NCBI GenBank assembly: GCA_017411835.1
Contig: JAFQPG010000002.1
Location: 124,001-188,000 of the forward strand
Direction of reading: 5' to 3'
DNA length: 64,000 nt
DNA from: Ruminococcus sp.
GTDB taxonomy: Bacteria > Bacillota > Clostridia > Oscillospirales > Acutalibacteraceae
The number at the start of each line of letters is the position of its first letter. Within the stretch, counting starts at the first letter, position 1. The translations under genes were made by a program, and so were the position numbers. Under the pieces are notes generated by a model. That model saw only the letters and a list, made by a program, of their open reading frames with translations. It did not search any database and was not told the DNA's origin. This document shows positions 27,242 through 63,904 of this stretch, in pieces.

Positions 27242-28756
27242 ATGAAAAGAAATCTTTGCATATTACTTTGTATTATTATGATATTTGGTGTTGCATCGAT
27301 TGCGAGCACATCAGCGGTTGTTATCAATCCCGCATATAACGCTACATACGATGAGGCTTCCCTAAATGAAGCGATACCGGGCAACCCGACAGCCAAAGGA
27401 AAATGTGGTGAAAATGCATACTGGGGCTATTATGCAGATACAAAAACTCTTGTTATTAACGGTGAAGGTGCAACCTCTTTGGGTGCGTGGGCAGTAGAGC
27501 CTATGTATAATAAATATCCTTTTGAAAAAGCAGTTGTTTCAGAGGGTATTACCATTTTGGACGGAAATACATTTTCGGGATGCAGTTATGTGAAAGAGAT
27601 TTTGCTACCAGACAGTTTAGTATCAATTCGTGATTATGTTTTCTTTGGTTGCACAGCTTTAAAAAGTATTACAATTCCAAAGAATGTAGAGATTATCGGG
27701 ATAGGTTTGTTTATGAATTGTCCTGCGTTGGAGCAGATTACGGTTGACGTACAGAATAAGACTTTTGACAGCAGAGATAACTGTAATGCTATTGTAAAAA
27801 CAGAGCCTAATATCTTACACGCCGGATGTAGAACAACAAAAATACCGACTAGCGTTGAGATTATCGGCGGTGGTGCATTTTTAGGATGTGTAGGTATAGT
27901 TGATGTAGCTATTCCTAATAACATTACCGAGATATATGGCAGAGCCTTTGAAGATTGCAAAGACCTTGAAACTGTAACTATGACATCTTCTGTAGAAAAA
28001 ATAGGTTTAAACGCATTTACTAATTGTGCTAAGTTAAAAAGCATAACTTTATCTGATAAGCTTAAATCTATTGATATGTTGTTCTACGGATGTGAGAGTC
28101 TTAAGAGTATTACTATACCTGACAGTGTAATTAATATATCTCAAAGTTCATTTAACGGATGCAAAAGCTTAAGCAAGGTCGATTTTGGTAACGGTGTTGA
28201 AGTTATAGGTCCAATGGCATTTAGCGGTTGCACAAGCCTAAAGACAGTAAATATTCCTTCATCCGTCAAAAACATTATGCCTCACGCTTTTGCTGACTGC
28301 ACCGCAATAGAAAGCATCACAGTCAATAACCCTGAGTGCGAGATAGGGGATAAGGAAAAAACTTTTCCTGAAAAAGCTACAATCTACGGCTATGAAAACT
28401 CAACAGCACAGGTTTATGCAAAAAAATATAACAGAAAATTTGTTGGTTCTTTGGGTGAGTATCAGCCAACAATACCGAACAAACCTGCGACTCCGGACCA
28501 GCCGGCTACTCCGGATCAACCAACGACACCTAATGAGCCATCTTTACCTATTGGCGATGTTGATATGGACAAAGAGGTAAGCATTTTGGATGCAACTGCG
28601 ATACAGCTACATATTGCACAGAGAGTTCTACTTTCAGAAAATGCTCTCGCTTTAGCAGATGCAGATATTGATGGCGAAGTTACTGTTTTAGATGCTACAG
28701 AAATTCAGTTGTTTGTAGCAAAAAAGATATCGTCAATACCTAGAGCTGGTAGATGA
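27242..28756 (+). CDS. Secreted leucine-rich-repeat (BspA/LRR_5) protein with C-terminal dockerin
   Basis: 504 residues. The signal peptide (1-25) is followed by a short domain (about 40-95), then about ten LRR_5/BspA-type repeats (about 95-380; recurring pattern C.SLKSITIPDSV..I). A proline/threonine linker with PATPDQ repeats (about 418-436) leads to a type I dockerin (437-500) with two duplicated segments, GDVDMDKEVSILDATAIQLH and DADIDGEVTVLDATEIQLFV. The dockerin implies docking to a cohesin scaffold outside the cell; the LRR region may bind host, mucin or protein ligands. No catalytic domain is visible. It shares its terminator with luxS. Confidence 0.92.
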   Translation: MKRNLCILLCIIMIFGVASIASTSAVVINPAYNATYDEASLNEAIPGNPTAKGKCGENAYWGYYADTKTLVINGEGATSLGAWAVEPMYNKYPFEKAVVSEGITILDGNTFSGCSYVKEILLPDSLVSIRDYVFFGCTALKSITIPKNVEIIGIGLFMNCPALEQITVDVQNKTFDSRDNCNAIVKTEPNILHAGCRTTKIPTSVEIIGGGAFLGCVGIVDVAIPNNITEIYGRAFEDCKDLETVTMTSSVEKIGLNAFTNCAKLKSITLSDKLKSIDMLFYGCESLKSITIPDSVINISQSSFNGCKSLSKVDFGNGVEVIGPMAFSGCTSLKTVNIPSSVKNIMPHAFADCTAIESITVNNPECEIGDKEKTFPEKATIYGYENSTAQVYAKKYNRKFVGSLGEYQPTIPNKPATPDQPATPDQPTTPNEPSLPIGDVDMDKEVSILDATAIQLHIAQRVLLSENALALADADIDGEVTVLDATEIQLFVAKKISSIPRAGR

Positions 28757-30636: not shown

Positions 30637-30667
30637 AAAGTACAGGCGACTGTACTTTTATTTTTTT
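30637..30667 (+). terminator. Intrinsic terminator
   Basis: A perfect 9-bp stem, AAAGTACAG (30637-30645) GCGA CTGTACTTT (30650-30658), then TATTTTTTT. Confidence 0.93.
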
Positions 30668-30689: not shown

Positions 30690-30718
30690 TTGATATATGG
30701 TGCTTGTGGTGTTAGAAT
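30690..30718 (+). promoter_or_regulatory. Promoter of the phosphoesterase-dockerin gene
   Basis: TTGATA - 17 bp - TAGAAT with TGT before the -10. A TATAAT immediately downstream (30719-30724) is an alternative -10. Confidence 0.6.
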
Positions 30719-30755: not shown

Positions 30756-33700
30756 ATGAAAAAGATTTTATCTATTATTTTAGCATTAATACTGGTTTTA
30801 AGTGTGATGCCTTTTTCGGTATTTTCCGAAGAAGTCAGCAGTCTTTCCTACGAGTTTACAGGTGTAAACAAGGATGACCCTGGTTACGCTGAGGGTACAA
30901 TCACTTTTAACGCGGCTTCTACAGCTACCTACTACCTATACTGGGGTGACGATGAAAAAGCACTCGAGCAGTATTTTGAAATTACCTCATTTACTGCCGA
31001 AAAAGGCTCATCTGTCACATATAAATTTCCTGCGCAAGTAGCTATTCCTGCTGATGCAGAATGTATTTTTGTATCAAAGGCGAGCGACTGTGCTTATGCA
31101 AAAGTATCAGAAAACATCGCTAAGTTTGATATTCCTGACAGTAAAAAGCTTTATGATTCTTCATCAGAGCGTCAGTACAGATACGCAGCGCTTTCTGATA
31201 TCCATATTGATATGCAGCACGGTACATCTGCAGGCTTTTACACAAACTCTACAGCTCACTGGGCACAGACACTCGACGTCTGCGTAGATAGAGAAGTTGA
31301 CTTTATTATTTCATCAGGTGACCAGGTTACTAACGCTTATGGTGCAACACTTGAATGGCTGACATATCAGCAGATTCTTGCAGACTCTGATTATGTTAAC
31401 CCTATTTATGAGTCCGATGGTAACCACGAGCCACGAGGTGCGGCTAACAGCAACTGCGATGTAGCTTGTTCAAACGAAGAGTATTCTATCGCTACCGGTC
31501 TTGATGCTGATTCAAGCTCAATCGTAGAGGGTAAGGACTACTACGAAGTAACCGAGCCTAACACAGGCGACCACTTTATCTTTATGAGTGAGGTTAACGC
31601 TCATCCTGGCGAGAACGACAACTTCTCAAAAGAACAGCTCGACTGGTTAGAGGGCTTACTCAATAAATACAAGGGCGACGGCAAAAAGATTTTCCTTATT
31701 CAGCACGCACTTTTACAGGGCTACGGTGCAGGTGACGATATTTACGATCCTGGCTATCAGGGCGGTATCAGAATGGCTCACGCTGAAACAGGCGAGCAGT
31801 TCCCTAACAACCAGAGATTTAAACAGATTCTCGAATCAAACAAAGAGATTATCTGGTATTCAGGTCACACCCATTTAGACTTAAGAGAAAATCAGAACTA
31901 CAGCAGTGAGAATGGTGCATCTTGCCATATGGTGCATATTCCATCTGCTTGTAATACAACAGCTTACGAAAAAGACGAAAACGGTGTTAAATACTTAGAT
32001 ACATCAACAGACTACACCTTCTACGATGATACAACACAGGGCTATTTCGTAGATGTTTTTGAAGATGCAACTATCATTTATGGTACAAACCTCCACTACA
32101 ACAAGGTTTATCCGGCATATACATATTTAATCGAAGAGGGCGAACCTGTAGAGCGACCTACAGAAGAGCCGATACCTCATCCTACAAAGCCTGTTCCTAC
32201 TCAGCCTATCATTGAAAACGGTAAAGTAGTTTACTGCGTAAACTCCGCTAACTGGGCAGAGGTTTATGTTCACTCTTGGAGTGATACAGCGGCTACTACA
32301 ACATGGCCGGGATACCCGATGACAAAAACAGGCGAAACTGTAAATGGCTTTGATATTTATAAAGCAGAGCTTGAACCGTCATATACAGGAGTCATTTTCA
32401 ATAATAATGACAATGGCTCACAAACAGGAGACCTCACAGTTATGGAAAACCAGTACTACGACATCAAATCCGGTGCGTGGTACGCTTCTCCTAATGATAT
32501 ACCACAGACCTCTGCACTTGCTACAGACCGTTATCTCGTAGGTTCATTTAACGGCTGGAGTACTGTTGCTGATGAGTTTAAACTCAAAAATGAGGGCGAT
32601 TCTACAGGCTATGTTACAATGAACCTTGCTGCTAATACAACCTACGAATTCAAGGTTGTAAGAGAGGGCAAATGGACAAGTAACACAACACCTATTACAG
32701 GCGATGTAGAAGAGCTCGTGTTCTCTTCTTCAACAAGCGCAAATGCGAAGATTACTACAACTGTAGCAGGCGACTATGTGTTCTCGTTTGGTATTAACAG
32801 CTCAAGGCTCGGTGTAACCTACCCTGACCCAACACAGCCTACAGAGCCAACACAGCCAACTGAACCGACAGAGCCAACTGACCCAACACAGCCTACAGAG
32901 CCAACACAGCCAACTGAACCGACAGAGCCAACTGACCCAACACAGCCAACTCAAACAGAGCCTACAGCTCCTACAGAGAAGCCGATAGTTTATGGTGACG
33001 TAGACTTAAACGGCAAGGTTGAGGTGCTTGATGCTACTCTTATCCAGAAAGCTATTGCCAGTATGATTACATTGACTGATGAGCAGATTAGAAACGGATT
33101 AGTATCAGGAAATGACACGCTCACAGTTTTAGATGCAACATATATCCAAAAGAAGCTGGCAAGTATTATTGATAAATTCCCTATTGAAGAAAACAGCAAG
33201 GATGTTGCAAAAACATCTGCAGACGGTACAAGCGACGAGCTCTTTACAAAGGCTACTGAATACTTAAAGGCATACTTCCAGTACGCTTCTTATAACGACT
33301 ATCAGGCATTAAAGAAAGTTGTTTATAAGTACAAGGATACTGATACAACAGCTCTGTCAGCAGATGCACAGGCTGAAATCACAGACGCTATAAGCACATT
33401 TGATGCGTTAAGAGAAAAGGTTCACCAGCAGACTGTTTACTATACCGACACAAACGCAAACGGAAACATCAGAGCTTACTATTTCAATAAGGCATCCAAC
33501 ACAGCGGTTGAAGCTTGGCCGGGACAGATAGGCTCATATATCCAGACAAACTCTTATGGTCAGAATATCTACGCGATTACGCTGAACTTCTCTAAATTCG
33601 ACACCGTCGTATTCAGTAGTGACGGCAACAACAAAACTGCTGATATTACCCTTGACGGCTGTTCAGGTAAGCTTTATTATCCAACAGCTCAGAATGCTGA

Positions 33701-34082
33701 GGGTGCATGGGATGTAGAGCAAACTACATTCAAACAGATGTGGTACAGTACAGTAAAGGAAGATGAGGTCGGCGGTGATGTCGCAGAAGATGTTACCATT
33801 TACTTTACCGATGCGCTTTCATGGGGCACTGTAAAATGCTACTACTGGCACGGCAGTAAAAACAACTCATGGCCGGGTCAGGATATGACTTATGTAAGAA
33901 ACAACTCTATGGGTCAGCCTATTTATAAATTGACTGTTCCTGCAGGAGCTTCTGTTGTATTTAATAACGGCTCCGGCACACAGACGGTTGATGTTGTCGG
34001 TGCTACAGGCGGTACAGGCTACTACGCAACCACCTTGTCAGGAAACAAGTACCTTGTAGAAACCTACTCCTACGGCGAATAA
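30756..34082 (+). CDS. Secreted metallophosphoesterase with starch-binding modules and dockerin
   Basis: 1108 residues. Signal peptide (1-24); an N-terminal beta domain (about 27-130); a calcineurin-type phosphoesterase (about 140-460) with the metal motifs SDIHID (Asp148, His150), SGDQ (Asp189), GNHE (Asn223, His224) and GHTHLD (His371, His373). A CBM26-like module (about 490-575, with WPGYPM and VIFNNN) and a second glucan-binding-like module (about 590-690, YLVGSFNGWS) follow. Then come a Thr-Glu-Pro linker (690-742), a dockerin (746-810), a helical spacer, and two more CBM26-like modules (about 892-985 and 1012-1108), each with WPGQ and a VVF(N/S) strand. The enzyme should act outside the cell on a phosphorylated substrate associated with starch; starch phosphate monoesters are an attractive guess. 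Confidence 0.88.
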   Translation: MKKILSIILALILVLSVMPFSVFSEEVSSLSYEFTGVNKDDPGYAEGTITFNAASTATYYLYWGDDEKALEQYFEITSFTAEKGSSVTYKFPAQVAIPADAECIFVSKASDCAYAKVSENIAKFDIPDSKKLYDSSSERQYRYAALSDIHIDMQHGTSAGFYTNSTAHWAQTLDVCVDREVDFIISSGDQVTNAYGATLEWLTYQQILADSDYVNPIYESDGNHEPRGAANSNCDVACSNEEYSIATGLDADSSSIVEGKDYYEVTEPNTGDHFIFMSEVNAHPGENDNFSKEQLDWLEGLLNKYKGDGKKIFLIQHALLQGYGAGDDIYDPGYQGGIRMAHAETGEQFPNNQRFKQILESNKEIIWYSGHTHLDLRENQNYSSENGASCHMVHIPSACNTTAYEKDENGVKYLDTSTDYTFYDDTTQGYFVDVFEDATIIYGTNLHYNKVYPAYTYLIEEGEPVERPTEEPIPHPTKPVPTQPIIENGKVVYCVNSANWAEVYVHSWSDTAATTTWPGYPMTKTGETVNGFDIYKAELEPSYTGVIFNNNDNGSQTGDLTVMENQYYDIKSGAWYASPNDIPQTSALATDRYLVGSFNGWSTVADEFKLKNEGDSTGYVTMNLAANTTYEFKVVREGKWTSNTTPITGDVEELVFSSSTSANAKITTTVAGDYVFSFGINSSRLGVTYPDPTQPTEPTQPTEPTEPTDPTQPTEPTQPTEPTEPTDPTQPTQTEPTAPTEKPIVYGDVDLNGKVEVLDATLIQKAIASMITLTDEQIRNGLVSGNDTLTVLDATYIQKKLASIIDKFPIEENSKDVAKTSADGTSDELFTKATEYLKAYFQYASYNDYQALKKVVYKYKDTDTTALSADAQAEITDAISTFDALREKVHQQTVYYTDTNANGNIRAYYFNKASNTAVEAWPGQIGSYIQTNSYGQNIYAITLNFSKFDTVVFSSDGNNKTADITLDGCSGKLYYPTAQNAEGAWDVEQTTFKQMWYSTVKEDEVGGDVAEDVTIYFTDALSWGTVKCYYWHGSKNNSWPGQDMTYVRNNSMGQPIYKLTVPAGASVVFNNGSGTQTVDVVGATGGTGYYATTLSGNKYLVETYSYGE
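32825..32943 (+). repeat. 54-bp tandem repeat encoding a Thr-Glu-Pro linker
   Basis: Two exact 54-base units (32825-32878, 32879-32932) and a partial third encode repeats of PTQPTEPTQPTEPTEPTD. Such linkers are flexible spacers between modules of dockerin proteins and are prone to length change by recombination. Confidence 0.9.
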
Positions 34083-34095
34083 TTCAATATACTAC

Positions 34096-34131
34096 AAAAG
34101 CCACCCGCTATTTTGCAGGTGGCTTTTTTTA
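34096..34131. terminator. Terminator between phosphoesterase-dockerin gene and the deacetylase gene
   Basis: Stem AAAAGCCACC (34096-34105) with GGTGGCTTTT (34118-34127), T-run on the plus strand. The stop codon of the convergent gene begins inside the T-run. Confidence 0.88.
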
Positions 34132-63043: not shown

Positions 63044-63904
63044 ATGAGCTTAAAAAATAAAAAAAGAACGATTGTGATTTTTGCTTTGGCTATCATATTG
63101 ATTGCGTTGACAGCTTGGGCGGTTTGGGCAAATACAGCTTTGGTGCTTAATACATTCACAATAAGTAGCGACCGCTTGCCAAAAGCATTTGATGGCTTTA
63201 AAATTGCGCAGGTGTCTGATTTACACAACGCCCAAATAGGTAAGGATAATAAAAAGCTTATCAGCACACTTGAGTCTGCAAAGCCTGATATTATTGCTAT
63301 AACAGGCGATATTATTGATTCTCGCAATACCGATACTCAAGTAACGCTTGATTTTGTAAAGAAGGCGGTGGAAATTGCTCCTTGCTACTATGTAACGGGT
63401 AACCACGAATCGCGAATTGAAGAATATGAAAGCTTTAAGACCGAAATGGAAAATTTAGGCGTTGAGGTTTTAGAGGACGAAAAAATCAAGCTTGAGCAAT
63501 CGAGTTCATACATTTCGCTGATAGGCGTAAATGACCCGAGCTTTACAACGGCTTATTTGTTTGGCGATTCTGTGACGGTTATGGCTCAAAAGCTTTCTGC
63601 TCTTACAGATGAAGACAGCTACACTGTTTTGCTTTCGCATAGACCTGAGCTGTTTGAATGTTATTCTAAAGCGAAAGTGGATTTAGTTTTGAGCGGACAC
63701 GCTCATGGAGGTCAGGTTGTACTGCCTTTTGATATCGGTCTGGTCGCACCAAACCAAGGCTTTTTCCCTAAATACGATTTTGGACTGTTTACACAAGAGA
63801 GCACAAATATGATAGTCAGTCGTGGCATAGGCAACAGCATTATTCCAATTCGTATAAACAACAGACCCGAAGTTGTTTTAGTACAGCTAGAGTCAAAGCA
63901 GTAA
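63044..63904 (+). CDS. Membrane-anchored metallophosphoesterase, YkuE/YaeI-like
   Basis: 286 residues. An N-terminal membrane helix (about 9-29) leads to a calcineurin-type phosphoesterase with VSDLHNAQIG, ITGDIIDSR, VTGNHESR, LLSHRPELF and SGHAHGGQ, so all metal ligands are present. Related proteins hydrolyse UDP-diacylglucosamine or other phosphoesters at the membrane; the substrate here is unknown. It has its own promoter and terminator. Confidence 0.92.
   Translation: MSLKNKKRTIVIFALAIILIALTAWAVWANTALVLNTFTISSDRLPKAFDGFKIAQVSDLHNAQIGKDNKKLISTLESAKPDIIAITGDIIDSRNTDTQVTLDFVKKAVEIAPCYYVTGNHESRIEEYESFKTEMENLGVEVLEDEKIKLEQSSSYISLIGVNDPSFTTAYLFGDSVTVMAQKLSALTDEDSYTVLLSHRPELFECYSKAKVDLVLSGHAHGGQVVLPFDIGLVAPNQGFFPKYDFGLFTQESTNMIVSRGIGNSIIPIRINNRPEVVLVQLESKQ

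Follow-up and report, generated by a model that had tools for sequence, protein, structure and literature searches.

A Ruminococcus metallophosphoesterase joined to starch-binding-type modules and a dockerin, and the family to which it belongs: candidate starch-tethered phosphoesterases

A gene at 30756..34082 (+) of a 64,000-nucleotide stretch of Ruminococcus sp. DNA (the window; GenBank assembly GCA_017411835.1, contig JAFQPG010000002.1, positions 124,001 to 188,000) predicts a 1108 aa protein that is apparently secreted, and in which a calcineurin-type metallophosphoesterase (MPE) domain is joined to four modules of predicted starch-binding type and to a type I dockerin. An earlier sequence-only reading had placed the MPE with its metal motifs, about four carbohydrate-binding modules and the dockerin on one chain, and this list of parts was right. 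The enzyme probably acts on something held at starch, and there appears to be an even chance that its substrate is the phosphate monoesters of starch in particular. We tentatively propose, at somewhat less than even chance, that it belongs to a new class of α-glucan phosphatase: a secreted MPE family of gut Clostridia that would attach to starch through CBM26, X25 or CBM41-type modules, in many cases join amylosomes, and dephosphorylate granules from outside. According to the literature found, this class would be the first outside the dual-specificity phosphatases and the first from bacteria, and paralogues may divide the C6 and C3 esters between them.

The five metal motifs DxH, GD, GNH[DE], H and GHxH are the hallmarks of the calcineurin-like MPE superfamily. 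The MPE region, for which a search of residues 140-460 had been suggested earlier, gave a PF00149 profile match over the cut-off (Pfam span 142-373), and all five motifs are present; the domain extends over about residues 138-460 (31167..32135, +). It is preceded by a β-strand domain (residues 26-135, 30831..31160, +; strands 4-82 of the AlphaFold model) whose conservation goes along with that of the MPE in alignments A1 and A5. Purple acid phosphatases are distinguished by an iron-ligand tyrosine in a GDxxY motif, and assignment to them was rejected as the motif here is GDQVT, with tyrosine at that position in 0 of the 27 rows of alignment A1. A glucan phosphatase of the dual-specificity type (SEX4, laforin) was likewise rejected, the catalytic domain being PF00149 and no dual-specificity Pfam match being found at E up to 1. 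Scanning NCBIfam with the MPE domain at E 0.01 returned no family, and the whole protein gave weak matches only, all under the cut-off. A new finding is that the MPE belongs to a family with no name in NCBIfam. Its metal-binding residues are kept across 72 aligned family members, which argues against a non-catalytic MPE fold with a structural or binding role. On that explanation the protein would be a starch adhesin; starch-binding dockerin proteins without GH13, such as Sas20, do exist in Ruminococcus bromii (available text of PMC9112005) and speak for it, but we consider it very improbable.

Three CBM26 modules had been recognised by eye, and all three were borne out by a direct Pfam scan, in which CBM26 (PF16738) matched three stretches with 108.8 bits against a cut-off of 28.1. 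The modules, also found by genome search and local profiles, lie at residues 492-564 (32229..32447, +), 894-967 (33435..33656, +) and 1015-1080 (33798..33995, +), and their aromatic and WPG positions match most CBM26 modules of the GH13 enzymes in the same genome. A fourth starch-binding-type module, marked by GSFNGWS, had also been proposed, and a model of moderate quality (pLDDT 66.9) upholds it as a putative X25/CBM48-like module (residues 587-692, 32514..32831, +). The model matches X25-2 of R. bromii Sca5, SusF, pullulanase and SusE, together with a weak Pfam match, and none of its Foldseek matches has E 0.001 or below. A sequence profile of this module against the PDB gave no significant match (best E 0.19), the ten listed and non-significant rows including SusF (0.42), glucoamylase (0.43) and AMPK-beta (about 1). 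The CBM26 and X25 pair (about residues 463-746) recurs in other proteins of the genus with up to 60% identity, for example at C1:51633-52391, and the pair is a shuffled cassette of predicted starch-binding function.

A conserved helical domain of about 70 residues (about residues 815-890, 33198..33425, +; local profile) with a SYxxYxxLK-like motif precedes the second CBM26. In the family it often precedes CBM26 or PUD, or stands alone at the C-terminus, as in loci L127, L129, L130 and L134. Its sequence has no significant match in the PDB (best E 0.27, to translation factors). In R. bromii Sas20, a CBM26-like sandwich and a helix bundle hold maltotriose between them (PMC9112005, in the portion available), and because of this arrangement the helical domain may have a similar role, as the analogy suggests.

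The association with glucan modules extends well beyond the single gene. A search of named genomes with alignment A1 gave 218 relatives, of which the best 80 were taken; after removal of two loci truncated at contig ends and a third whose frame is broken, the remaining 77 were combined with the gene itself to give 78 open reading frames (ORFs). This sample is biased, since it consists of the relatives ranked as most similar to the MPE of 30756..34082 and rests on alignment rows drawn from a search with the full-length protein. The best 80 relatives come from Ruminococcus, Lachnospiraceae, Oscillospiraceae and others, many of them from the gut of roe deer, goat, sheep, cattle and rabbit. Pfam matches at E 0.01 were found to CBM26 in 17/37 plus 36/41 family ORFs (53/78), to dockerin in 15/37 and 15/41, to PUD (which we take to be CBM41) in 6/37 and 1/41, and to AMPK1_CBM in 1/37 and 2/41. 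Local profiles detected CBM26 in 56 of the 78, PUD in 7 others, dockerin in 31, the helical domain in 66 and X25 in 8. At 70% identity the 72 rows fall into 28 clusters, 21 with CBM26, 2 with PUD (one mixed with bare members) and 5 with neither. On a quick tree of these rows, from which the ancestral state is undecidable, the CBM26/PUD/none state calls for 6 changes and the dockerin for 8. PUD members occupy one Lachnospiraceae/Oscillospiraceae group, together with members whose chain terminates behind the helical domain, and CBM26 members fill the rest of the tree except for L125, L141, L144 and L149. As CBM26 and PUD sit on different branches, a single MPE family appears to have been joined to two families of α-glucan module. 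The near MPE family as a whole, and not this gene alone, shows the link to glucan modules, which constitutes new evidence; because of this coupling, the substrate would be expected to lie on or in α-glucan, rather than the fusion being due to chance.

The same comparison bears on a second explanation, namely general phosphate scavenging, in which a secreted enzyme, phosphatase or phytase-like, merely sits on starch and acts on nucleotides, phytate or sugar phosphates around the granules. By local profiles, CBM26 or PUD is present on 63 of the 78 near-family members, but among the 213 other open frames in the same loci with 300 codons or more, only 3 have CBM26 and none has PUD. For the 74 secreted-looking frames among them the counts are again 3 and 0, under a crude rule (signal-like start with a membrane filter); with the filter left off, 74 of the 78 family members pass this rule as secreted. 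In the genome from which the window comes, both near-family members carry CBM26, and the other six PF00149 matches are in frames without it. The family is also rare beyond the genus, being detected in 4 of 391 genomes in an even draw of the class (E up to 1e-30; own genome counted). Scavenging is thus rather unlikely. Within the genus, 75 of 123 genomes of completeness 85 or more have one to three matches each (E up to 1e-40), and full-length orthologues (74-77%) were found in four further genomes of 100 genus draws, a fifth having one in two contig pieces. Genus genomes with the family have a median of 21 CBM26 matches (n=75) compared with 16 in those without (n=48; Mann-Whitney p 3e-5), a comparison that ignores relatedness and MPE-borne CBM26 and in which at most 43 candidates were scored in some genomes, so that counts there are at least those given. 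Copies with internal stop codons, either pseudogenes or assembly errors, were seen at loci L107, L108 and L186 and in genus genomes G033, G050, G055, G060, G082, G092, G494, G495, G498 and G505.

The genome itself (1.72 Mb, 20 contigs, 99% complete), which its relatives point to as that of a gut Ruminococcus, is of the amylosome type, with at least one cohesin and with GH13-dockerin-CBM26 enzymes. At E up to 1 the dockerin profile matches 43 times, with 37 of these over the cut-off; there are 45 CBM26 matches and 19 GH13 matches, some of which are likely doubled at contig ends. The sequence-only reading had pointed to cohesins and dockerin-bearing amylases as parts that should accompany the protein, and both were found. 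Six ORFs combine GH13, CBM26 and dockerin, and the cohesin at C1:84818-85765 scores 26.1 bits against a cut-off of 24.1, in agreement with Pfam. A second cohesin match at C14:36249-36581 (ORF C14:35808-37628) is over the cut-off in the genome search and absent from the Pfam scan at E 0.01.

Among the covalent modifications of native starch, phosphate esters are the chief one. In the proposed mechanism the protein is secreted, as its N-terminus indicates, and would be held on starch by its three CBM26 modules and the putative X25/CBM48-like module. The dockerin may plug it into an amylase scaffold, an attachment made less certain by its second calcium loop, and the two-metal site, whose ligands are present, would hydrolyse phosphate esters displayed on the granule. 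The likeliest natural substrate would be the C6/C3 phosphate monoester placed on amylopectin by plant dikinases. Its removal could clear the chain for amylases of the same complex, with phosphate as a by-product. Action as a starch phosphatase is ranked first because, of the esters that occur on starch, no covalent one is better known than the C6/C3 monoester and because its removal should help exo-acting enzymes. Phosphate groups are able to obstruct some glucan hydrolases (PMC5779698, in part), and around 0.5% of the glucose residues of potato starch are phosphorylated, according to the available part of PMC8288039.

The removal of starch phosphate had been suggested earlier from the parts alone; the starch-type modules, the GH13-dockerin enzymes, the cohesin and the family-wide module link support it, and several observations weigh against it. 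No recognised glucan module was found in 15 of the 78 members, and eleven members consist of the MPE and the helical domain only, which is the chief finding that speaks against a strictly starch-related role. The dockerin (residues 746-804, 32991..33167, +; Pfam span 746-801, genome search, local profiles) had been called type I, and the profile match to PF00404 and a canonical first calcium loop agree with this, but the second loop is degenerate, which weakens the scaffold attachment. The match has 25.7 bits in the genome search, over the cut-off, and 19.1 bits in the direct scan, under it. The second loop is also degenerate at loci L112 and L118, and canonical at L115, L116 and in the paralogue of the same genome. 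Nor would a dockerin alone prove a role on starch, since the dockerin set of this genome spans many non-starch domains. The partners in 20 non-GH13 ORFs taken from the dockerin list include starch modules only, esterase, MPE, CotH, papain-type peptidase, leucine-rich repeat, beta-lactamase-like, transglutaminase, lectin and peptidoglycan-hydrolase-like domains, one ORF being without a family. It is the CBM26 modules that carry the argument for starch.

This breadth bears on a third explanation, in which the substrates are polymers of the bacterium or its host at the starch-attached cell surface, such as teichoic acid or the phosphates of glycoproteins or proteins, and the enzyme serves adhesion or helps the complex to mature. 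The peptidoglycan-hydrolase-like, CotH kinase and protease proteins suggest that the complex is not solely for starch, and a secreted CotH kinase could yield extracellular phosphoproteins. However, this would not explain three CBM26 modules and an X25-like module, nor the presence of PUD instead in other lineages, and it is improbable.

Structure prediction recovered the MPE fold but left the choice between mono- and diesterase undecided, as a fold search with the AlphaFold model ties with both alike. The fold is common to the glycerophosphodiesterase GpdQ, the dimetal phosphatase 2nxf, purple acid phosphatases, Rv0805, Lmo2642 and SMPDL3A/acid sphingomyelinase, with 12-18% identity in the fold alignments (50 matches listed). 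Membership of the acid sphingomyelinase or Mre11 groups was weighed among the fold matches listed and not adopted. Because of this tie, scavenging keeps some probability, as does a phosphodiesterase acting on lysophospholipids in amylose helices and granule channels, where cleavage of the head group would open amylose-lipid complexes to amylase. Lysophosphatidylcholine in maize granules is cited in the available part of PMC8288039. However, Mre11 is the better sequence match (3.9e-6), monoesterases match equally well by fold, and no lipid-binding part was recognised in the protein. The esterase encoded near the paralogue is of a broad family (PF00756), and the MPE and esterase genes on C5 face opposite ways and are separated by a further ORF. 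We therefore regard a lysophospholipid phosphodiesterase as unlikely.

The paralogue is the second near-family member, C5:149251-152028 (L213:4252-7032), with an MPE, one CBM26 and a dockerin whose calcium loops are better than those of the 30756..34082 protein. The PF00756 esterase, with dockerin and CBM26 (C5:154733-156169, L213:9731-11170), is about 2.7 kb from it; it too bears a starch module although it is no glycosidase, and its targets are perhaps acyl esters or the lipids of starch. C18:30085-31989 (L211:5086-6990), the third dockerin-MPE of the genome, predicts a dockerin ahead of an MPE that is of a different subfamily, rejected as a near-family member (best BLASTP E 0.05, not close); its neighbours are a CBM26-dockerin ORF and a CBM26-GH13 amylase. 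The 1611-residue GH13 protein of C14:40532-45364 (L208:7533-12365) has CBM26 and fibronectin domains and two stretches that match the purple acid phosphatase N-terminal domain, and its gene adjoins a GH13-dockerin-CBM26 gene. PF00149 scores highest in the genome (55.7 bits) on a small separate metallophosphoesterase in the window, 63044..63904 (+), in a frame without starch modules.

SEX4 and laforin carry CBM48/CBM20, and SEX4, LSF2 and laforin act intracellularly. The starch phosphatase proposed here would have converged on the role of SEX4/LSF2 in plants and of laforin in animals, like them removing phosphate monoesters from α-glucan with a catalytic domain fused to α-glucan-binding modules, but with a different fold and outside the cell. 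SEX4, LSF2 and laforin are dual-specificity phosphatases (PMC13011383, as far as available). In contrast, the protein described here has a two-metal MPE as its catalytic domain, is apparently secreted and carries CBM26/X25 modules and a dockerin; its activity is predicted. An α-glucan-type module is also joined to a phosphoesterase in human glycerophosphodiester phosphodiesterase 5 (CBM20 domain 2z0b). That enzyme is intracellular and its catalytic domain is of another family.

The best-scoring sequence matches in the PDB are R. bromii Amy16 (1.6e-17), Amy10 (8.7e-16) and Amy4 (6.6e-12), via the linker, dockerin and CBM26. Linker, dockerin, CBM26 and the putative X25 module are of the same kinds as in the R. 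bromii amylosome proteins Amy4, Amy10, Amy16, Sas20 and Sca5, and the dockerin lies between CBM26 modules, as in Amy16 (PMC5814915, in part). However, Amy4, Amy10 and Amy16 are GH13 enzymes and the protein here is an MPE. The R. bromii amylosome is described in PMC5814915 and PMC9112005, with 27 dockerin proteins in the latter; no phosphatase is named among them in the available text of either, and 'phosph' is absent from the main text of PMC9112005. Among the open-access literature matches listed (title and start of abstract), there is no report of a bacterial starch phosphatase or dockerin-borne MPE. The available part of one review treats phosphate esters as one of the obstacles that hydrolases meet in potato-type starch (PMC8288039), and gut-bacterial handling of these esters is not addressed in the open-access literature found. 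A starch-bound phosphoesterase family in amylosome-type bacteria makes this handling directly testable, and may yield enzymes for starch modification and markers for gut bacteria that use phosphorylated starch.

The order of parts in the 30756..34082 protein is signal, N-terminal β domain, MPE, CBM26, X25-like module, Pro-Thr-Glu linker (residues 690-742, 32823..32981, +), dockerin, helical domain, CBM26 and CBM26. The linker was judged by eye, as was the signal-peptide-like N-terminus (residues 1-25, 30756..30830, +), which agrees with the secretion claimed earlier. Consensus scans placed a terminator-like hairpin (30637..30658, +) and a promoter-like site, TTGATA-17-TAGAAT with TG ahead of the second hexamer (30690..30718, +), upstream of the gene, and a further terminator-like hairpin behind it (34105..34122, +); in this region the scans found 6 terminators where 2.9 are expected and 7 promoters where 8.8 are expected. 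The upstream hairpin suggests that the gene is its own transcription unit. It is flanked by GH25 and LuxS genes and, at its other end, by a polysaccharide deacetylase gene, and as all are on the opposite strand no functional partner is suggested. The neighbours of 8 family members without glucan modules (46/55 ORFs) likewise include no recurrent starch or phosphate partner. About 2 kb upstream, 27242..28756 (+) predicts a BspA-type leucine-rich-repeat protein with a C-terminal dockerin, and dockerin ORFs are located at a similar distance upstream of the MPE at loci L112, L113, L116 and L118.

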